Assembly: GCA_019695055.1 (NCBI GenBank)
Contig: JAIBAT010000135.1
Location: 1 to 64,000 of the forward strand
DNA: 64,000 bases
Direction: 5' to 3'
From: Candidatus Sumerlaeaceae bacterium
GTDB lineage: Bacteria > Sumerlaeota > Sumerlaeia > Sumerlaeales > Sumerlaeaceae
Positions 19,957 through 48,232 of this stretch are shown piece by piece. The notes below the pieces were generated by a model that saw nothing but the letters and a program-made list of their open reading frames with translations, had not been told where the DNA came from and made no database searches. The first letter of the stretch is position 1. The number at the start of each line of letters is the position of its first letter. Position numbers and translations under genes: made by a program.

Positions 19957-22521
19957 ATGTTTTGTCTCCCGCCACGAATCGCAGCAATCTGTGCATTTGT
20001 CTTCCTGTGCTCAGCAGTACAGGCACTGGATCCGCCCGAGCATCGCGCATTCTACGCTGCGACGTTCGACATCAACACACAGTCGAAGTGCGACACCATC
20101 ATCGCGAAAACCCTCGCAAGCAACGTGAACGAAATCTTTGTAGAGGTGCGCGGTCGCGCCGACGCCTACTACTACCCCAACCGCGAGGATTCCACCTACC
20201 CAAACACCGAGCCCCGCGGCGAACTTTATGCTATTAGCCCGGCTGGTTTTGACGCCCTTCAGTACTTCATCGACAAACTTCACGCTGCGAATCCGCGCGT
20301 TGAGGTGCACGCTTGGTGCACAACCTTCAATACCTGGAACCGCTCCACTCCCCCTTCAAGCGCCAGCCATGTCTACAATGCTCATCCCGAATGGATCACC
20401 GAAAGTGCCACGGGGATAACCTACACCTATTCGGACGACGCTCCGCTCGATCCCGGCATTCCCGCCGTGCAGGATTATATCACGAATGTATTTATGGATA
20501 TTGTCCGCAACTACGACGTGGACGGCATCCACTTTGACTATGTCCGCCTCCTCGGGACAGACTCCGGGTTTGATCCCGTCGCCAAGGCCCGTTTCCTCGC
20601 CGAAACCGGCTGGAACTACGACACTGATAACACCGGCAACCGCCTCGGCGAGGTTTACGAGGCCTGGCGTCGCGATCAAATCTCCCGCGTTGTCCAGCGG
20701 GTCCATACCCAAACCATGCTGGAAAAGCCCTGGGTGGAAGTTTCCGGCTTTCTCGTTAATTTTGACGACTCGGTGGAATTCCTCGCTCAAGGCTATAATT
20801 GGTGGGTCGCCCATGGCGCCATTGATGTTCTTCACCCCGGCTGCTATTCATCGACTGTTTCCGGAACAGTGGCCGATTGGGATTTCTATGTCTCAAAACT
20901 CGCCCAGAACGGTGATCAGAACAAGCGTCCCCTGGTCTGTGCTGTCGGTGACTATCTCCTTACCGCCTCACTCGAAAACGCCCAGGCTGTAACCACCCTG
21001 CGCACGAACAGTCGTGTCCCCGACGGCTTTAACTTCTTTGATTACGGCTCTTTGTTTGTGGATGGCGCATCGCTAAACGCCGGCGATCCGGCGGACAAGC
21101 ACGCCCAAAACCTCTTTAATGCAGGCGGCCCCATGGATGACGACGCCCCTGTTCCCACCATAACCCACAAGATTCCGCTGGGAGAGGAAACCACTCCGCC
21201 CAGTGCGCCAGCATCTGCTGCTGTGACGCTTGTCGGCGGTACGCCGCGAATTACCTTCAACCGTCCGGCTGCAGCCGGAGACAGCGACCTGCCTGTTCAT
21301 TACCGGATTTACCGCGACACGGCAAACCCGGTAAACCTCACCTATGCCAACATGAAAATGGAATGGTGGGACCTCGCATCCTCGCGCAGTTCCTTCACGT
21401 TTGATGATGCCCTGTGCCCGGCGGGAACCTACCGCTATACAGTAGTATCCTACGACAATTGGAACAACGAGGCTGCGGTCACAGTGGGGCCCGTGACGGT
21501 TTCCACCTCGGGCGAATACATTATCGAGACCCGCACGGGTGGTCAGCACGTCTCCGATTATTCGGAATCCGGCACATTCTCCGACAGCTCATCCCACAGC
21601 ACGGCCGCAGGCTGCACCGCGGCCATCGGAAGTCGGTTTGCCCTACCCGCTGATGGGAACGGACGCAATGACAAAGCCCGCTTTACACCCAGCGCCATGG
21701 CCACCGGAACCTACAACGTTTACGTGACCAGCTTTAACGTCTCCAGCGCCAATGCCCTCGGGGTCACTTTCCGCAAGAACGACGGGGGCGGCGTCGCCAC
21801 CTCGACATTCAATCTTACCTATACCGCCACGGGAAACCAGTGGTTCCTCGTTGGGGCGGTCAACTTCACGGCTGGATCCGGCCACTATGTGGAATTCGAC
21901 AACGCCACGCAAACCAACCTCGGCGATTCCACCAACGCCCGCATGAACGCCGCCGCAGTACGATTTGTCCGCACAAATGGTACACCCAAGGAATCCAAGC
22001 CCGCCGTGTCCGCCTCCGCCAGCACTGCCACTCAGGTTATTGTGGACAGCACGCCCCAAGCTCTCGACTATGATGATGACGGCTCCTCTGGGAAATGGGC
22101 CACCAGTTCACTTTCGGGCTACTATAATGGCAACGCCCGCTTCTACTCCTCGGCCAACACCTTTCCGATGAATTCCTACGCCGTCTGGCTTATCGACCTT
22201 CCCCGCTCTGGCAACTGGGCCATTGATGGCTGGGTCCGCAACAATACATCTTTCGCCACCCAAGCGCAATACCGCTTCGTGGATGGCACGGGGACTGTCC
22301 GTAATGTGACCACCACTCAGCGCTCTGCCTTCGACTCCACCACCACCGGTGACTGGCTTATCAATGTGGACGGGGTCAGCGATGCCAGCGCGTACTACTT
22401 TAACAAGGGGCACAATTACGTCACGATCTATGGCAACGCCGCTGGGGCTCAAACAGTCGTAGCCGATGCCCTGCGCTTCCGACTGATTTCCACTGGCGTG
22501 AATGACTGGCCGCTTTACTAG
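19957..22521 (+). CDS. Secreted family-10-like glycosylhydrolase (GHL10/DUF187) with FN3-like and golvesin-like domains
   Basis: 854 residues. A signal peptide (about 1-23) ends at VQA before LDPPEHRAFYA. The GHL10 barrel (about 30-370) shows VNEIFVEVRGRADAYYYPN, VHAWCTTFNTWN and the strand VDGIHFDYVRL with acidic residues. An FN3-like module follows (about 415-515). Two golvesin/xanthan-lyase-type carbohydrate-binding-like segments come next (about 520-675 and 690-850), each with an IIETR or VIVDST start and a final YVEFDNAT or YVTIYGNAAG strand. It should act outside the cytoplasm on a glycan; GHL10 substrates are largely unproven. The stop overlaps that of the convergent aldolase by 4 bases. 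A shorter paralogue lies at 44929-46431. Confidence 0.88.
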   Translation: MFCLPPRIAAICAFVFLCSAVQALDPPEHRAFYAATFDINTQSKCDTIIAKTLASNVNEIFVEVRGRADAYYYPNREDSTYPNTEPRGELYAISPAGFDALQYFIDKLHAANPRVEVHAWCTTFNTWNRSTPPSSASHVYNAHPEWITESATGITYTYSDDAPLDPGIPAVQDYITNVFMDIVRNYDVDGIHFDYVRLLGTDSGFDPVAKARFLAETGWNYDTDNTGNRLGEVYEAWRRDQISRVVQRVHTQTMLEKPWVEVSGFLVNFDDSVEFLAQGYNWWVAHGAIDVLHPGCYSSTVSGTVADWDFYVSKLAQNGDQNKRPLVCAVGDYLLTASLENAQAVTTLRTNSRVPDGFNFFDYGSLFVDGASLNAGDPADKHAQNLFNAGGPMDDDAPVPTITHKIPLGEETTPPSAPASAAVTLVGGTPRITFNRPAAAGDSDLPVHYRIYRDTANPVNLTYANMKMEWWDLASSRSSFTFDDALCPAGTYRYTVVSYDNWNNEAAVTVGPVTVSTSGEYIIETRTGGQHVSDYSESGTFSDSSSHSTAAGCTAAIGSRFALPADGNGRNDKARFTPSAMATGTYNVYVTSFNVSSANALGVTFRKNDGGGVATSTFNLTYTATGNQWFLVGAVNFTAGSGHYVEFDNATQTNLGDSTNARMNAAAVRFVRTNGTPKESKPAVSASASTATQVIVDSTPQALDYDDDGSSGKWATSSLSGYYNGNARFYSSANTFPMNSYAVWLIDLPRSGNWAIDGWVRNNTSFATQAQYRFVDGTGTVRNVTTTQRSAFDSTTTGDWLINVDGVSDASAYYFNKGHNYVTIYGNAAGAQTVVADALRFRLISTGVNDWPLY

Positions 22522-27194: not shown

Positions 27195-28700
27195 TCAGCG
27201 ACGGGTTCTCGCACGCCCTCCAAGCATTCCCCGAGTAATCTGGTGGCCCAGCTGGGTCCCAACGCTACGGGCAGCGCTTTTCAGGAAAGCACCGGCAATG
27301 GCAAGGAGCCCACCCATGGCACCGGCAACCACCGCACCGGTAGCTGCACCAGATTTTTGTGGAGCCTCGGGCTCGGGTACAGGAGCTTCGCTCGAGGCGC
27401 CAGGTCCAGCAGCGCCGCCGGCGGCGCGCTTTTTCAGCATTTCGTAAGCCGACTCGCGGTCCACGACTTGGTTGTACTTTAAGCCTACAGCGCTGGCGGC
27501 AGCCGCTTTGGTGCGCTCCGCTTCATCAGCCGGTCCCAACCGGCTGGATGGCGGTCGCACGAGAATGCGGTCAACCGGCGTAGGAATGCCCTTATCGTCG
27601 AGCATGCTGGCCAGGGCCTCGCCGACGGCAAGTTCGGTGATTGCCGTGGCTGTGTCGATCTTCGGGTTTTCGCGGAAAGTCTCGGCGGCGGCGCGCACAG
27701 CTTTCTGGTCGCGGGGCGTGAACGCGCGCAGGGCGTGCTGAACGCGGTTGCCAAGCTGGCCGAGAATCTTATCGGGTACATCGAGAGGATTCTGGGTGAT
27801 GAAGTAAACTCCTACGCCCTTCGAGCGAATGAGGCGGACGACTTGTTCGACCTTTTGAACCAGAGAGTCAGGCGCACCATCGAAGAGGAGGTGGGCTTCG
27901 TCAAAAAAGAAAACCAGCTTGGGCTTTTCGGGGTCACCGACCTCGGGCAATTCCTCAAAGAGTTCACTGAGCAACCAAAGAAGGAAAGTGGCGTAAAGGC
28001 GCGGATTCTGCATAAGCTTGTCGGCGCAGAGGATGTTGATGATACCGCGGCCGTCGGCCGTCGCCCGCATGAGATCGGCAAGCTCAAGGGCAGGCTCGCC
28101 AAGGAACTTCTCGGCACCCTGCTGTTCGAGAACCAGCAGGTCTCGCTGTATGGCCCCGACGCTTGTCGCGCTGATGTTTCCGTATTCGGTCTTAAGCTCT
28201 GCGGCGTGTTCCCCGACAAAATCGAGAATGGCGCGGAGATCCTTGAAGTCGATAAGAAGGAGCCCCTGATCGTCGGCGAGCTTAAAGGCGATGTTGAGGA
28301 CACCCTCCTGCGTGTCGTTCAGGTCGAGGAGACGGGAGAGGAGGAGGGGGCCCATGTCACTAACGGTGCCGCGAACGGGATGGCCTTTCTCACCATAAAT
28401 ATCCCAAAACTCCACCGGGAAGCCTTCGTTGCGATAGTCGGTTAGGCCGATGGCCTGGGCGCGTTCCACGAGCTTGGGCTTGTTTTCGCCTGCCTGGCAA
28501 ATGCCGGAGAGGTCGCCCTTCACGTCCGCCATGAAAACGGGGACTCCCTTGGCACTGAAGCCCTCGGCGAGCACCTGAAGCGTGACGGTTTTGCCGGTGC
28601 CAGTGGCCCCGGCGACCAGTCCGTGGCGATTGCCGAGGTGGGGTAAAAGTTGGACGGGGCCTTCGCCTTTGCCAATGAAGATGCCGTTATCGTCAGCCAT
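27195..28700 (-). CDS. HerA-like P-loop ATPase, DUF853 family
   Basis: 501 residues. Walker A is GATGTGKT at 31-38 (after NRHGLVA), with [13 protein letters not shown] just behind; Walker B is [13 protein letters not shown]. Further family segments are [26 protein letters not shown] and [14 protein letters not shown], which carry the sensor and arginine-finger region. DUF853 proteins belong to the HerA/FtsK ATPase class and are thought to be DNA-translocating motors; their role is not settled. The C-terminal 60 residues add an Ala/Gly-rich hydrophobic stretch. I chose ATG 28700, which has GGGAGG just upstream; an extension to 28922 has no family match. The divergent neighbour is the MFS-HEAT gene. 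Confidence 0.9.
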
Positions 28701-28927
28701 CAGGTAACCCTCCCGATTGAAATGGAAGGATAGTGTGCAGCACTTTCGCTTTGTGCGGCAACAAACAAATGCATTGGATGGCCAATAATCAGAGGGAGGG
28801 AACTGTTGGTAACTTATCAGAAACGTGGCCATCGCACTCGCCCCATGGGGAACCACAGCCGCGCCGAGACAGCCGGCGCATGAACTGCCTGCCGCCAGCC
28901 AGCGCGCCACAGGAAAGCGCAACTGCC

Positions 28928-30811
28928 ATGGAGGGTGACCAACAGCGCCACTCCCCCGCCGAGATAGGGCGCATCTGGAAAACTGTGTCGTGGGCCGGAC
29001 TGCTGGGAACGATATACGGCATCATATGCATGACGGGCGCGCCGCGGGTCAAGTTTCTGACGGATCTGAAGGCCACGGCTTTCGATTTTGGGCTCATCGC
29101 AGGCCTTTGCAGTTTCGCGATCGCGTTTCAGGCGGTCGGAAGTCTGCTAAACAGTCACCTCCGGCGGCGGAAGGTGCCGTGGATGATCATCACCATTGCG
29201 CACCGCCTCCTGTTTGCCGGTGTACTGGTGGCGGCTTTCGTGCTGCCGCAGGGGCACACACAAATGGCCGTCATCATCTCCGTGATATTCGTGCACGATG
29301 CGCTGGCGCAGACATCTGTGCCCATGTGGCTTTCGTGGATGACGGATCTGATTCCCGAGCGCGCGATGGGGCGTTACTGGGCGCGCCGGCAGAGATTTAT
29401 CACGATATTGAGCATCGGTGCAATGCTGGCGATTGCCTTCTATTTCAACTGGTACGAGAAGGCCGGGCAGGTGCAACTTGGTTTCCTGATATTGGGAACA
29501 ATTGGCATCGTGCTTGGCGTGACTGACATTTTATTGTTTGTGGCCGTGCCGGAGCCATCGCGCTCCGATGTCAAGGGGGCGGGGGTCTTGCACTCTCTCG
29601 CGGAACCACTTTGCGACAGAAACTATCGGCCGTTTCTCGTCTACATGAGCTATTGGCACTTTGCGATCTTTGTGTCGGCGCCGTTCTTTGGCCTCTTCAT
29701 GATCGAGAACCTCGGGTATAGCGTGATGACCTACCAGTTGCTGAACGTGGTGGGGGCCGTGGGCGTGGTACTGACGTCAAACTTCTGGGGTGTGCTGTGC
29801 GACTTGTGCGGTTATCGCCCCGTGCTGGTGGTGCTGTCCCTGGGCAAGGCAATCACGCCGCTGGCATTCATGCTCGCGCCCAAGTATGATCCGGTGGGCA
29901 TACCGTTTCTCGTTATCATGTTTTTCCTGGATGGCATTTGCAACTCGGGCTGCGCGCTGGCCACCCAGGGCGCCATGCTGAAGTTCGGCCCGCGGCACAA
30001 TCGCGCAGCTTATGTGGCCGCGGCAAATCTTCTTGCGGTGGGGATTGCGGCGGGAATATCGCCCATGCTGGCGGGGCCCATGATTGATGCGGTGAACAAA
30101 CGGGTTCAGATTGATGTTGGTTGGTACTCACTCAATGGTTTCCACCTCGCGTTCTTCCTGAGTTTTTTGCTGCGCCTCGGCAGCATTTATCTCGCTGCGA
30201 AAATTCACGAGCCGGGCTGCCTGAGCGTGGGGGCAATGTGGGCACAGGTGCGCGCGCGTAACTCGCTACGCACCATCGGCATGGTCAACCGTTTGCATGC
30301 GACGTCGCGTGAAACACAGCGACTGCGCATCATTGATGGGCTGACGGAATTGCGCCACCCGCTGGCCATTGGGGAACTCATCAGCGCCTTGGAGGATGAG
30401 AGCCGACGAGTACGCGCATCTGCAGCGGACGCACTTGGTTGGATCGGCACTTCGGACGCCACGCGGCCACTGGCCCGGGCACTAAGCGATTCGGGCTCCG
30501 GGATACAGCCAAAAGCGGCGCTGGCCCTTGGGCGTATCGGGGGAATGGAATCGCTAAAGGCCCTGCTCGCGAATCTGGTGCATGAGGATCCCGCGGCCCT
30601 GGGCGAAACGATTGATGCACTGGGCGAGCTCGGCGACGGCGCGGCGATTGTGCCGCTCATCTGCCTTTTTCACGAAACAAACAATGAGGCATTGCGCAAC
30701 CGCATAGCGACGGCACTCGGCCGATTGTCGTCTATGAACTCGGTGGATGAGGTCATGGACGCGCTTGGCGACGAGCGCAAGTTCACGCGCCCTGCGCCTG
30801 CAATGGGTTGA
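28928..30811 (+). CDS. MFS transporter fused to C-terminal HEAT repeats
   Basis: About 627 residues. Residues 10-460 form a twelve-helix MFS-type transporter with [21 protein letters not shown] in the loop after helix 4 and a matching DLCGYRP loop after helix 8. Residues about 485-620 carry four to five HEAT/PBS-lyase-type repeats, for example [40 protein letters not shown] and [17 protein letters not shown]. The repeats face the cytoplasm and should bind a partner. The start is uncertain: ATG 28928 places the protein just before the first helix, while ATG 28880 and 28733 are in frame. The substrate is unknown. The fusion is uncommon. Confidence 0.82.
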
Positions 30812-32749: not shown

Positions 32750-32830
32750 ATGCGCCCCGGCCAGTCGAAGGCTTGCCCACCTGCCGATTTCTGATGATTT
32801 TCCCGACAGGCTGGCAATATTTGGGTGCAA

Positions 32831-34888
32831 ATGAAAGAGTATGGCGATTTTGAGCTGAACTCTGCCGATGCCATTTTTCAGCAGGGTCTGGACCTGCTGG
32901 AATGCGACCACTTTGAGGAGGCGCTACGGGCGTTCGACTTTGTCGTCAGCCAGCAGCCTTACAATGCTGATGCCTTTTTTCACCGCGGCATTGCGTTGGT
33001 GAACCTGAACAGGAGCGACGAGGCGGCGGGGGCATTCAAGATCGCGGTGGAGCTTGCCCCGACGGAGGCCCTCTTTCACACACACTTTGGCTATGCCCTG
33101 ATGCTTTCGAGCAAGCTCGTGGATGCGATTGAACAGTTTGACAAGGCCTTGGAATTGTCGCCTGACAACTACCAGAACAAGATTTACAAGGCGTGCGCCT
33201 TGGCGGAAAATCGCAACCTACATGGTGCCCGGGCGTTGCTGAAGGAAGTGCTCGAAGAGCACCCTGATGACCTGGATGCCCGACGCAATCACGGGAACAT
33301 TGCCGCGGCAATGGGCGATGATGAACTGGCGATTGAGGAATACTCCGTGGTGCTGCGAAAGCAGCCAAACAATCTCGATGTACTGCGTCGGCGTGCGGAG
33401 ATCTTCCAGCGGCAATCGAGGCAGGACGACGCAATCCGGGCTTACCGCGAAATCGTGGCAATCGATCCGCGCGACCGGACAACGTGGATGACGCTCGTGC
33501 GTGTCCTTGGGGAAACAGGCGACCGCCCGGCGGTGATTGCCCACGCAACGGAGGCCATCGACCTTGGCCACGAGACGGCGGAAATTTACGTGATGCGCGG
33601 CAAGGCACTGCTGGAGCAAAAGCAGACGGAGCAGTCCATAACGGACCTGCGCCGGGCACGGGAGCTGAATGATCGGCTGCCAGAGGCGCACCACCTTCTG
33701 TCACGTGCTTTCATGGAGTCGGGTCGGCTGGGACAAGCCGTGAAGTGCGCAAGCCGGGCGCTACAACTTAATCCACGGGACATCCGTTTCCTGTTGATGA
33801 AGGCGGCGCTTCACCACCGCCTCGGGGAGTACGACGCAGAGTTCCAATACCTGACCGCGATCGCCGCGGAGATTCCCGGTGATTTCGAGATCACTCGACG
33901 CACCGTGGAGAACCACCTCCTGCGCAAGCAACCGCAACAAGCTGTGACCGTGCTCGAGGAGTTTCTTGGCAAGGATCCCGACCACTCACGGGCACTGCTC
34001 CTGTTTTCGGAACTGAACGAACGCCTCGGGAACGTGGGCCAAACGCTGTGGGCGTACCGCCGAATTTTCAGCCAAAAGCAGGTCGAAGTGGAGGCCTTTC
34101 TGGCGTTTGCGCGTTTTCTGGTCAGGCAGGCCGACACCAATCAGGCACTTCAGGTTCTGGATCGCGGTGCGGCAATCTACCGCGACCACGCGGCCATCCA
34201 CCTTTGGCGGGCGGAGATATATCACTCGCTGGGGCGCCATGAGGAGTGCATCGCGAGGATACAGGAATTCGGGCCGGGGCCTGTACGGGCGCCTGCCATG
34301 TACTGGCTGCTGGGCAAGAGTTACTACGCCATTGGCGGTTTCCAGCAGGCGCTGAAAGCATTTGGCGAGGCGCGAAAGCACGAGGAACAAGCGGGACGTG
34401 CCAGTGTGCCGCCATTTCGGTGTCTTGTGGCTGAGGCATGGACACTCCATCACCTTGGGCGCACCGGCGAAGGCATCGCACTGCTCGGAAGGTACGCGGG
34501 GAAATTCGACCAGTTTGAGCGGGAGTACCACGAGGTTCTCGGCGAACTCTATGAAAACGCCGGGACGCCGGAGCGGGCTCTGGAAGTCTACTCCGAGGGA
34601 TTGCGAAAATATCCAAAGGCCGCAACACTGCACTATCGCATGGCGCGAACCGCTGCGGCCACAGCCGATCGCAAACTCCTAATCAAGCATCTGGATGCCG
34701 CCGTTGCTAATGATGGCACGCTGGCGGATACTGCGGCAAATGATCCCGTTTTCCAAAAATTCGCTTATAGCCCATCCCTCAACCGGGTATTGGGTTTCCG
34801 CTTTTACCGTCGGCGGGCGAAGCTGCTCACGTTGATGGGGCTGTGGATTGTGGCGCTTCTGGTAACGGTTTACCTGGCGAATCATTGA
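32831..34888 (+). CDS. TPR-repeat protein with C-terminal membrane anchor
   Basis: 685 residues. From about 10 to 620 the protein is built of tandem tetratricopeptide repeats (for example EEALRAFDFVVSQQPYNADA and DAIEQFDKALELSPDN). The last 20 residues (LLTLMGLWIVALLVTVYLANH) form a single membrane helix, so the repeats should lie in the cytoplasm, tail-anchored. No enzymatic domain is seen. Such proteins serve as scaffolds for envelope, secretion or glycan complexes. ATG 32831 is preferred; GTG 32825 is also in frame. The 3' end overlaps the convergent GT87 gene by 62 bases. It follows ddl after 81 bases. Confidence 0.85.
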   Translation: MKEYGDFELNSADAIFQQGLDLLECDHFEEALRAFDFVVSQQPYNADAFFHRGIALVNLNRSDEAAGAFKIAVELAPTEALFHTHFGYALMLSSKLVDAIEQFDKALELSPDNYQNKIYKACALAENRNLHGARALLKEVLEEHPDDLDARRNHGNIAAAMGDDELAIEEYSVVLRKQPNNLDVLRRRAEIFQRQSRQDDAIRAYREIVAIDPRDRTTWMTLVRVLGETGDRPAVIAHATEAIDLGHETAEIYVMRGKALLEQKQTEQSITDLRRARELNDRLPEAHHLLSRAFMESGRLGQAVKCASRALQLNPRDIRFLLMKAALHHRLGEYDAEFQYLTAIAAEIPGDFEITRRTVENHLLRKQPQQAVTVLEEFLGKDPDHSRALLLFSELNERLGNVGQTLWAYRRIFSQKQVEVEAFLAFARFLVRQADTNQALQVLDRGAAIYRDHAAIHLWRAEIYHSLGRHEECIARIQEFGPGPVRAPAMYWLLGKSYYAIGGFQQALKAFGEARKHEEQAGRASVPPFRCLVAEAWTLHHLGRTGEGIALLGRYAGKFDQFEREYHEVLGELYENAGTPERALEVYSEGLRKYPKAATLHYRMARTAAATADRKLLIKHLDAAVANDGTLADTAANDPVFQKFAYSPSLNRVLGFRFYRRRAKLLTLMGLWIVALLVTVYLANH

Positions 34889-44928: not shown

Positions 44929-46431
44929 CTATTGGGCTCCACCCGCATTGAGTGCCTGGTAAGACTTCTGACTTTCGTTACCAACACGATCCACTGCGCC
45001 GACGGCCACTGCGCGAACGTCACCGCCGAGCTTTGCTGGGCTGATGCTATAAGTGTTATTCCCGCCGGGCACCACGTCCATCAGCCATGAATTGCCAATC
45101 TGCAGGTAAACTGTCCATAGCCAAGGTGAGCGCCCACCCGCGTCCATACCAATGGCAATATCATTCCCGCTTTTCCCAACTTGTATTCCCGGAGCGGCTG
45201 GCGCCTTGTTGCCAAGCCACGGTGAGGCGGGAACAAGAGCCGGGAGAGCGTAGGGTTTCGTCCGAAGCTGCTCCTCCATGCCACCCTTATTTTGCATAAC
45301 AGTCTTGGCGCTGAAATGGATGTGACCCGTAGCGCCGCGCTGTTTTCGGGTGGCACCGATTTGCGCCACAATTTCACTCGGCTCAAACTTGGAGGTAAAC
45401 AGGCCGGGCCATAGGTGATGATTGCGTGTGTTCTGCTCCACCCACCAATTCAACAGAGATGGGAAACTTTGCTGGGGTGCGGAGATTTTCCAATAGAGTT
45501 GGGGTGACAGATAGTCCACCCACCCCTCCTGTAACCATTTGCGGGAATCGGAAGCCAGTTCTTCATAGGAATTCAGGCCTACAACTCCCTGTGGGTTTCC
45601 AGGTTTCCAGATCCCGAAGGGACTGATGCCAAATTTGACCTGGGGCTTGGCCTGGTGAATCCCCTGGGAAACGAGCTGAACAAAGGAATTGATGCTTTCG
45701 CGACGCCATTCCTTCTTTTCCAATTTGCCGCCCGCCGCCTGGTACTTCTTGTAACTGACATCATCTGGAAACTCGACAATCTGTTTCTTGGAATCCTTCA
45801 CGAGGTAGGGATAGAAATAGTCGTCAAAGTGGATGCCATCCACATCGTAACGCCGCGCCACATCGAGGACCACGCTCGCGGAGTAATCCTGGACGTCTTT
45901 CTCGCCTGGATCCAGCCACAGGTAATCTCCGTAATCGCGCACCAAGTCGGGACGACGCTTGGAGATGTGATTGGAAGCAAGCGGAATACTGGAACCCTTG
46001 ATGGCAGCCCGAAACGGGTTAAACCACGCATGAAGCTCCAGCCCGCGGCGATGGGCTTCCTGTATGGCAAATTCCAATGGATCATAGCCGGGATTTTGAC
46101 CCTGCTCGCCGGAAAGGTACCCGGACCACGGCTCAATTCTCGACGCATAAAGGGCGTCACAAGCCGGGCGGACCTGGAATATGATGGCATTCATCCGCAT
46201 CTGGCGCGCACGGTCCAGAATGCCGATAAGCTCCTGCCTCTGTTGTTCGGCGCTCAATCCGCGCTTGGACGGCCAGTCGAGATTTCCCACCGACGCCACC
46301 CAAAGTCCGCGGAATTCGCGCGGAGCCTCGGGAATGGCAGGAGCTGCTACAATAGACGGGGTTAAGGCTAAGCAGCACAGGCCAAGAACAAGGCCCACAA
46401 CAGGAGCAAGGCGGGTGACGGCGTTCTTCAT
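44929..46431 (-). CDS. Secreted family-10-like glycosylhydrolase (GHL10/DUF187)
   Basis: 500 residues. A signal peptide (about 1-28) ends SIVAA before PAIPEAPREFRG. The GHL10 domain has FRGLWVASVGNLDWPSKRGLS, MNAIIFQVRPACDALYASR, LELHAWFNPFRA and YDVDGIHFDDYFYPY, then the VKFGISPFGIW strand and VDYLSPQLYWKI. This is the classical FenI/YngK-like form. The C-terminal 100 residues resemble an FN3-like module. It lies 85 bases behind wzt on the same strand, probably in one transcript, and would process the exported polysaccharide or wall. Unlike the paralogue at 19957 it lacks golvesin-like modules. Confidence 0.92.
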   Translation of the reverse strand: MKNAVTRLAPVVGLVLGLCCLALTPSIVAAPAIPEAPREFRGLWVASVGNLDWPSKRGLSAEQQRQELIGILDRARQMRMNAIIFQVRPACDALYASRIEPWSGYLSGEQGQNPGYDPLEFAIQEAHRRGLELHAWFNPFRAAIKGSSIPLASNHISKRRPDLVRDYGDYLWLDPGEKDVQDYSASVVLDVARRYDVDGIHFDDYFYPYLVKDSKKQIVEFPDDVSYKKYQAAGGKLEKKEWRRESINSFVQLVSQGIHQAKPQVKFGISPFGIWKPGNPQGVVGLNSYEELASDSRKWLQEGWVDYLSPQLYWKISAPQQSFPSLLNWWVEQNTRNHHLWPGLFTSKFEPSEIVAQIGATRKQRGATGHIHFSAKTVMQNKGGMEEQLRTKPYALPALVPASPWLGNKAPAAPGIQVGKSGNDIAIGMDAGGRSPWLWTVYLQIGNSWLMDVVPGGNNTYSISPAKLGGDVRAVAVGAVDRVGNESQKSYQALNAGGAQ

Positions 46432-46516
46432 CGTGCGTCCAATTGGAGTAATGTGTTGTAAAACCCGAGCCACTGGGACCAATACCGCTGGATTCTGCAA
46501 GACCAATTCACACCTC

Positions 46517-48232
46517 TCACTCTGCAGCAATCTTCGAAACGAAGATGCTCAGCGCACGGGAATCCGTGGAGTCCGGGTTGTACTCCAGCGGAACCCATGT
46601 CCGGCTCGCGCGCAGGTGAATTTGGGATACGCCGGAGGTCCCCGCCTGCTTGAGCGGAAACTCCAATGCTTGAGTCTGAGTGGAACGCAGTTCCCCACTT
46701 CCCAGCAGGCAGTCGCCAATCAGCGCATCCACAAGAAGTGGTTCCTGGCTGGCTTTCGGATCAAAGGTTTGCGCATTGACCACAATTTTTGTGGCTCCCT
46801 CTGGAATGCCCAGGAAAACCTGGCCATGGCCGCCCATCCAGCGACAGACCCTCCCCTCGGACACCTGAGGGGCAAACCACTCCCCCGCCAGGTAGGGTTC
46901 GCTTTCCTCACCCATTGCAAGCTCGACTGGCGCATTGGAATACACCTTCTTCCAGATCGGTTCATCACTAAGGCGGTTGCTGTCCACCGGCTTAATCCCA
47001 ATTGTAGTGGGAAGATGGACAATACCGCCGGATTCCGGCGAAGGCAGGATTTCAATGACGCGAACGTCGTTTCGATAATCATAGAAATGGCCATCGGCAG
47101 AATGAACCGCAAGGGAAACGCTGTAGGCGCCACCTCCCAACTCCAGCGGCATCTGAAAGTTCACCTCAAGGGCCGTCCCGGCTTTCACGTCCCCCGTTTC
47201 CATCTTTCGGAGGTGTGTGTTGGTTCCGAAGATCTCAATCCCATAGCGATTCCGCAGCATGACCCCAAACACCGGATTCGACATCGGAGCATCAAACCGG
47301 ACAAACATTCGAAACCGCACCACCTGGGATGTCAGGAACTTCGTGGTCGCTTTTCCCGCATAGTCTTCGACGAAAATGTCCGTGATGCGGGCCTGAAACG
47401 AACCGAACCGCCGTTCACCGGTTTCAGTGGCGCTTTCCACCGCCCCGACTTCGTGAAACTTCGAGGCCATGCGATCGCGACTTTCCCCCAGAGTTGTGAG
47501 ACGTTCGGCAACCTGCAATAGGTATTGATGAATGACGTCCCTTGGCGGCCCCTCCGCAGTGAGCCGGCCGCGCTCCAGTAGAATCGCCTGATCACAGACT
47601 TGTGAAACCATATTTGTGTCGTGACTGACGAAAACAATGGTAACTCCGTTCTCGCGCATGCGTCGAATGCGGCCAAGACAACGATGCGAGAAGACCGCGT
47701 CCCCAACGGCGAGGGCTTCATCCACCAGCAGGATATCGGGCTGTGCACTCACGGCCACGGCGAATGCAAGACGGACAAACATCCCCGACGAATAGGTTTT
47801 GACAGGCATTTCCAGATAGCGCCCCAGTTCGGAGAACTCCGCAATTCCATCGTAGGCGGCCCGGGCATGGTCCGGGGAGAAACCCATGATGGAAGCGTTC
47901 AAAAAGACATTTTCCCGTCCCGTGAACTCCGGATGAAACCCGGTGCCCAACTCAATGATGGATGCCACTCGACCCGCCATTTCCACCGTGCCGGTGGTGG
48001 GCTCCACGATTCCCGCAAGTATTTTGAGTAGGGTGCTCTTCCCCGCCCCATTTGCACCCAGTACACCCAGCGCACCCCCACGGGGTACCTCGAAACTCAG
48101 GCCTTCGAGGGCAACAAACTCGCGGTGGGGCGCCGCCCCCCCAAGGAGGGTCTCACGCAAACGCCCCCAGGCGCCAGGGTAGCTGCGGTAGGTTTTCGTG
48201 ACATTGGCCACATGAATGGGATGCCGGCTCAT
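46517..48232 (-). CDS. wzt: Polysaccharide ABC exporter ATPase, Wzt-like, with extended C-terminal part
   Basis: 571 residues. The ATPase (about 1-240) has Walker A GANGAGKST, signature YSSGMFVRLAFA, Walker B ILLVDEALAVGD and H-loop VSHD, and the family's TYRSYPGAWGRLRE start. A Wzt-type C-terminal beta domain follows (about 280-410), which in Wzt reads the end of the glycan chain. A further region of about 140 residues has no clear counterpart in standard Wzt (about 430 residues). Its start overlaps the wzm stop by one base (TGATG). It drives export of an O-antigen- or teichoic-acid-like polymer across the inner membrane. Confidence 0.92.
   Translation of the reverse strand: MSRHPIHVANVTKTYRSYPGAWGRLRETLLGGAAPHREFVALEGLSFEVPRGGALGVLGANGAGKSTLLKILAGIVEPTTGTVEMAGRVASIIELGTGFHPEFTGRENVFLNASIMGFSPDHARAAYDGIAEFSELGRYLEMPVKTYSSGMFVRLAFAVAVSAQPDILLVDEALAVGDAVFSHRCLGRIRRMRENGVTIVFVSHDTNMVSQVCDQAILLERGRLTAEGPPRDVIHQYLLQVAERLTTLGESRDRMASKFHEVGAVESATETGERRFGSFQARITDIFVEDYAGKATTKFLTSQVVRFRMFVRFDAPMSNPVFGVMLRNRYGIEIFGTNTHLRKMETGDVKAGTALEVNFQMPLELGGGAYSVSLAVHSADGHFYDYRNDVRVIEILPSPESGGIVHLPTTIGIKPVDSNRLSDEPIWKKVYSNAPVELAMGEESEPYLAGEWFAPQVSEGRVCRWMGGHGQVFLGIPEGATKIVVNAQTFDPKASQEPLLVDALIGDCLLGSGELRSTQTQALEFPLKQAGTSGVSQIHLRASRTWVPLEYNPDSTDSRALSIFVSKIAAE

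Follow-up and report, generated by a model that had tools for sequence, protein, structure and literature searches.

An MFS carrier fused in frame to a HEAT-repeat solenoid in a Sumerlaeaceae bacterium and its relatives

The gene and its two domains

Here we describe a transporter gene with a C-terminal repeat domain from a Candidatus Sumerlaeaceae bacterium, whose genome assembly comprises 4,337,004 bases in 172 contigs. The gene is located at positions 28928-30811 (+) of the window, the whole stretch of 64,000 nucleotides that was analysed, and consists of a single open frame of 627 amino acids that opens with an ATG at 28928 and whose stop codon ends at 30811. An upstream in-frame GTG at 28733 also opens the frame; because the alignments to relatives start 4-14 residues past the ATG, 28928 is the likely start. 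The gene is divided as follows:

28928..30811 (+): MFS-HEAT fusion gene; single open reading frame, Pfam MFS_1 and HEAT_2 above their cut-offs, fused relatives in the phylum
28961..30226 (+): MFS domain, residues 12-433, with 12 transmembrane helices; structure model, hydrophobic peaks, matches to solved MFS structures
30227..30301 (+): junction, about residues 434-458, with two short helices (434-442 and 446-458); structure model, comparison of junction identity and length
30311..30769 (+): HEAT solenoid, residues 462-614, five helix pairs, probably cytoplasmic; profiles, structure model, lysine/arginine count, fold matches

A sequence-only reading of the locus had proposed twelve membrane helices followed in the same frame by four to five HEAT/PBS-lyase-type repeats. 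Both parts were recognised by Pfam within the one open frame, with scores of 63.0 bits for MFS_1 (cut-off 33.4), 73.8 bits for HEAT_2 (cut-off 27.7) and 37.1 bits for HEAT_PBS (cut-off 20.9); the HEAT_EZ and HEAT profiles scored below their cut-offs. In a set of 22 aligned proteins that includes the one from the window, MFS_1 matched all members (E <= 0.01) and HEAT_2 matched 19. At E <= 1, the membrane part of the window protein matched MFS_1 and no other Pfam family; a few relatives also match MFS_1_like, MFS_2, BT1 or LacY_symp. The gene thus encodes a twelve-helix MFS carrier whose reading frame continues into a HEAT solenoid. The Pfam cut-offs and the fused copies in 13 genomes rule out chance or a frame artefact, and the fusion of 22 out of 32 related loci rules out an assembly error.

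The full-length AlphaFold2 model (22 aligned sequences) had a mean pLDDT of 89.2 and a pTM of 0.83. It contains twelve membrane helices, followed by the two junction helices and the five helix pairs. Average pLDDT values of the ten-residue blocks from 431 to 600 were 85-95, and the last half repeat was modelled worse, with values of 74 and 59 for blocks 601-610 and 611-620. Folded alone, the tail again gave ten helices in five pairs (mean pLDDT 91.0), so that it forms a HEAT solenoid both on its own and in the full-length model; the repeat type proposed earlier was confirmed and the number fixed at five, and a tail of some other fold, which would have refuted the proposal, did not appear in either model. 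The twelve membrane helices were likewise borne out by the model and by hydrophobicity, since 12 of the 13 hydrophobic 19-residue peaks lie within residues 20-423; the thirteenth, at residues 562-580, is a HEAT helix.

Among solved structures, the best matches of the tail-alone model were alphaRep and other HEAT-repeat proteins, and its fold matches include the designed HEAT homotrimer 6veh and the CpcE/F structure 5n3u. The membrane part matched YegT, a nucleoside:H+ symporter (8zoj, TMt 0.78), SLC37A4 (9w1r, Z 34.0, rmsd 3.1 over 370 residues) and, among many other MFS carriers, NupG and SotB; the MFS fold matches cover model residues 7-431 in at least a fifth of the rows. A search of PDB chains with the MFS profile gave no match at E <= 0.01.

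An even number of helices places both termini on the same side of the membrane. With helix ends set from the AlphaFold2 model and the hydrophobic peaks, 20-25 lysine and arginine residues were counted on the inner loops versus 1-6 on the outer loops in each of 17 fused proteins. The inner loops are longer (125-137 versus 43-45 residues), and the density of lysine and arginine per residue is also higher inside. By the positive-inside rule, the HEAT tail is predicted to be cytoplasmic.

Directly upstream in the window, a HerA-like ATPase (27195-28922, -; HerA_C, 752 bits) is encoded divergently from the fusion gene, with its true start probably at an ATG near 28700. The window also encodes a TPR-repeat protein of 687 amino acids (32825-34888, +), which has a hydrophobic segment close to the C-terminus, and two GHL10 glycosyl-hydrolase-like proteins (19957-22521, +, and 44929-46530, -), one of which has a golvesin C-terminal domain.

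Distribution of the fusion and changes of the tail

Matches at E <= 1e-30 were obtained in 15 of 40 genomes of the phylum. Thirteen of these genomes, including all eight of the window's own family, encode the fused protein, with a total of 15 proteins (the window's included; two genomes have two copies); one further match was cut by a contig end (G027), and another genome (G013) had an unfused relative only. A profile search of contigs recovered 32 related loci, of which 22 were fused, nine lacked the HEAT part and one was cut by a contig end; these were found with an alignment as query, whereas a single-protein query of the same contigs found no relative. Half of the fused loci (11 of 22) come from genomes of the 40-genome set. 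The fused loci carry the titles Sumerlaeota/BRC1, Hydrogenedentota/Hydrogenedentes, Armatimonadetes, Planctomycetota and Verrucomicrobia, plus one titled only 'bacterium'. A sample of 213 genomes, about 190 of them outside the phylum, contained at least nine proteins of 765-824 amino acids that match both parts, in at least seven genomes outside the phylum, which is a lower bound because mostly five candidates were scored where there were many; seven of the nine were fetched as loci, and all had HEAT scores.

Beyond the window's clade the tails of fused relatives are longer: the MFS domain is followed by about 330-370 residues (L085, L090-L093, L096, L098-L101, L103, L106 and L112), in which Pfam named HEAT-type repeats alone (five scanned). 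Sequence comparison indicates that the fusion is old. The earlier statement that transporters rarely carry such a domain was too strong, given the 22 fused loci out of 32 and the published NTT-HEAT fusions.

A tree of the MFS part with 60 rows, 58 of them labelled (33 fused, 25 not), requires at least five changes of the tail; its deep end branches are long and several of its forks weak. Three tail-less proteins titled Lentisphaerae or Victivallales (L081, L082 and L084; 39-42% identical) nest in the fused clade, where they form a branch of seven rows with four fused proteins (support 98/90). The tail can therefore be lost and is dispensable in that lineage. The best tail-like matches elsewhere in these three genomes had 31-36% identity and lay in other frames. 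In the controls for this search, two fused genomes returned their own tails at 52-55% and the divergent tail of L090 was missed at the threshold used, so that a divergent separate tail could be overlooked. Likewise, the 900 bases past the stop codon of eight tail-less relatives held no convincing HEAT remnant (best E 0.68). On one Victivallales contig, the tail-less relative is directly preceded by a second MFS gene (L082:2288-3625).

Comparison of the related loci revealed no neighbour at a constant place that recurs beyond close genera, and the neighbours yielded neither a clue to the cargo nor a gene for a partner enzyme or regulator of the tail. The adjoining families vary and include PdxA, T2SSE, inositol monophosphatase, efflux genes, a second MFS and, in three cases, an S13 carboxypeptidase. 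Two groups of open reading frames, one present in 7 of 37 loci (with a histidine kinase among its members) and the other in 5 of 37, recur at shifting distances and strands and were taken as common families. The S13 (D-Ala-D-Ala carboxypeptidase) frames (L048:6690-8378, L073:7785-9845 and L074:1066-2772) share the strand of the MFS-HEAT open frame and precede it by 3-80 bases; the three genomes belong to two genera. The S13 frame of L048 was assigned by Pfam, and those of L073 and L074 by their similarity to it. In the window, a D-Ala-D-Ala ligase is encoded downstream of the fusion gene, behind two small open reading frames. Among the 37 loci, the S13 search matched just these three and the ligase search just the ligase itself, which is at most a hint of a link to peptidoglycan. 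In Verrucomicrobia, separate HEAT-repeat frames (L090:9695-10813, L092:3273-4532 and L096:8542-9837) lie directly upstream of the MFS-HEAT frame on the same strand in three of four fused loci; the fourth (L093) starts inside the gene. Because of a lipobox-like G-C-G-S-S near the N-terminus, their products may be exported lipoproteins and not partners of the tail.

Constraint on the tail and its possible role

Sequence comparison points to constraint on the tail. In 13 of 14 relatives, identity to the window protein was 41-58% for the HEAT part and 34-53% for the MFS part (29% and 36% in L060). The HEAT value equalled or exceeded the MFS value in 11 of the 14, and the tail was the less similar part in L053, L054 and L060. 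In every one of the 14, identity fell to 14-24% in the junction region (residues 434-470). Averaged over the columns of an alignment of 17 fused proteins, conservation was 0.595 for the MFS part, 0.458 for the junction and 0.619 for the HEAT part. Pairwise identities of tail versus MFS part were 70% and 77% for L073/L074, 45% and 67% for L070/L077, and 88% and 83% for L071/L075. The last pair, two copies from one genome with the lowest dS and the sole pair leant on for dN/dS, had values of 0.24 (tail) and 0.25 (MFS). For L070/L077, at a dS of 1.3-3.0, dN/dS was 0.17 (MFS) and 0.21 (tail), and L073/L074 gave an infinite dS in the MFS part as well as in the tail.

In a set of 33 distinct fused proteins, which span down to about 20-30% identity with the window protein, the first HEAT D..VR motif follows the end of the MFS domain after 61-63 residues in 31 cases and after 65 and 69 residues in the other two; the value is exactly 62 in 26 of the 33 (79%). 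For these values the end of the MFS profile was extrapolated where the match stopped short, L064 and L112 were counted once as one protein, and the script's result of 93 for L069 (one repeat too far) was read by eye as 62. As a calibration, the length of each of the eleven loops within the MFS part is shared by 47-100% of 32 of these proteins. The constant length of the junction is thus supportive but not unique, since several MFS loops are equally constant; by this comparison, the junction resembles an ordered loop rather than a free tether. Its net charge (residues 434-460) ranges from 0 to +6 in 17 proteins. The stretch after TM12 of the tail-less relatives L086-L089 and L097 resembles the start of the junction, which suggests an older C-terminal helix onto which the HEAT array was built, or from which it was lost.

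HEAT repeats are established protein-binding modules. The best explanation of the fusion, though still a tentative one that we would put a little below even, is that the HEAT tail of the MFS carrier, held in a defined pose, serves as a docking platform for a cytoplasmic protein. Both folds, the occurrence of the fusion in many genomes, constraint on the tail and the near-constant junction length have computational support. The carrier would move a probably polar solute, and its C-terminus would run through the short two-helix junction into a five-repeat solenoid in the cytoplasm. Held in its pose beneath the carrier, the solenoid would dock a regulator, or an enzyme that uses the solute, which would allow transport to be regulated or coupled. 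The sequence-only reading had likewise suggested that the repeats bind a regulator or connect transport to an enzyme; a cytoplasmic binding tail is still the best reading, but the search for a partner came up empty. A more far-reaching version, which we consider rather unlikely, is that the window protein belongs to the short-tailed branch of an ancient, multi-phylum, non-NTT MFS family, whose nearly fixed solenoid would relay the movement of the carrier to a cytoplasmic protein docked on it, or act in the opposite direction.

The main rival of the docking platform is an action of the tail on its own carrier, as a gate or autoinhibitory cap at the cytoplasmic mouth or by joining two carriers as a dimer. 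The near-constant junction length and the pTM of the joint model suggest a defined pose, as such an action would need, and the homotrimeric 6veh is among the fold matches; set against the tail-less putative carriers within the fused clade, this leaves cis gating or dimerisation an improbable account. That the tail has only a minor role in stability, insertion or localisation of the carrier, with no specific partner, would agree with its loss in the three Victivallales/Lentisphaerae proteins, with the lack of a partner gene near related loci, and with a conservation that mostly reflects the HEAT core: the invariant residues of the tail mostly look like ordinary core positions, and no binding patch was identified from sequence conservation. 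Tail similarity that equals or exceeds that of the transporter in 11 of 14 relatives, and fused forms under five phylum names, argue against so small a role, which we judge less probable again.

A binding scaffold fused at a constant distance would also suit a sensor (transceptor), whose MFS part would recognise a solute while transporting little or none of it, and whose tail would pass the signal to a cytoplasmic protein. This is quite unlikely, as the loop 8-9 stretch G..CD..G.R, which we take to be the MFS 'motif A' pattern, is kept in the alignment rows inspected, and the unfused relatives stop soon after TM12, as plain carriers do. Least probable by far is that the tail works as an enzyme resembling the HEAT-type bilin lyases, or binds a ligand, in the manner of CpcE/NblB: NCBIfam gives scores for both NblB (47.6 bits) and CpcE (29.1 bits), and the tail also matches CpcE/F (5n3u) in fold, but the equivalog cut-offs are far higher (300 and 330 bits, respectively), and the protein was rejected as a phycobilin lyase CpcE or NblB enzyme.

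Comparison with known systems

Solenoids of the alphaRep/HEAT_PBS type (6fsq, 3ltj and MTH187, 1te4) share the repeat type, and 6fsq and 3ltj also the fold of the tail; unlike these proteins, which are soluble by their molecule names and many of which are designed binders, the solenoid described here is attached to a membrane carrier. With YegT, NupG, SLC37A4 and SotB, the membrane part shares the MFS fold at an identity of 9-14%. At sequence level it does not belong to the YegT/NupG family, since MFS_1 is its only Pfam match and the likeness is one of fold.

The closest layout is that of the NTT-HEAT proteins, in which, according to Major et al. (2017; PMC5381601), a membrane transporter is followed by HEAT repeats (PF13646/PF02985). 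These authors present both NTT-HEAT and NTT-HEAT-cNBD fusions, whose partners they give as unknown, report that NTT-HEAT is broadly distributed in bacteria with one reversion to the unfused state, and argue for protein binding by the HEAT repeats. In contrast to NTT-HEAT, the membrane part here matches MFS_1 and no TLC/NTT model: PF03219 (NTT/TLC) had no match in the window protein (E <= 1) or in the 22 aligned proteins (E <= 0.01), so that by this profile the protein is no member of the NTT family. A PF03219 search of the phylum genomes was given no weight, as the control genomes were silent. Unlike NTT-HEAT-cNBD, none of the 22 proteins scanned from the MFS-HEAT set has a cyclic-nucleotide-binding domain. 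Among the titles and abstract openings listed by our literature searches, PMC5381601 was the report of a transporter-HEAT fusion and none dealt with an MFS-HEAT family, which does not imply its absence from print; the term 'MFS' does not occur in the main text of PMC8092238.

The family extends the HEAT layout to MFS proteins beyond the reach of NTT profiles, under several phylum names and with natural tail-less relatives in the same clade, and its fused and tail-less members offer a ready comparison for studying the effect of a cytoplasmic scaffold on a carrier. From the sequences compared, MFS-HEAT is a real and conserved fusion and appears to be a new variant of the transporter-HEAT design, with the layout of NTT-HEAT but not its NTT transporter.
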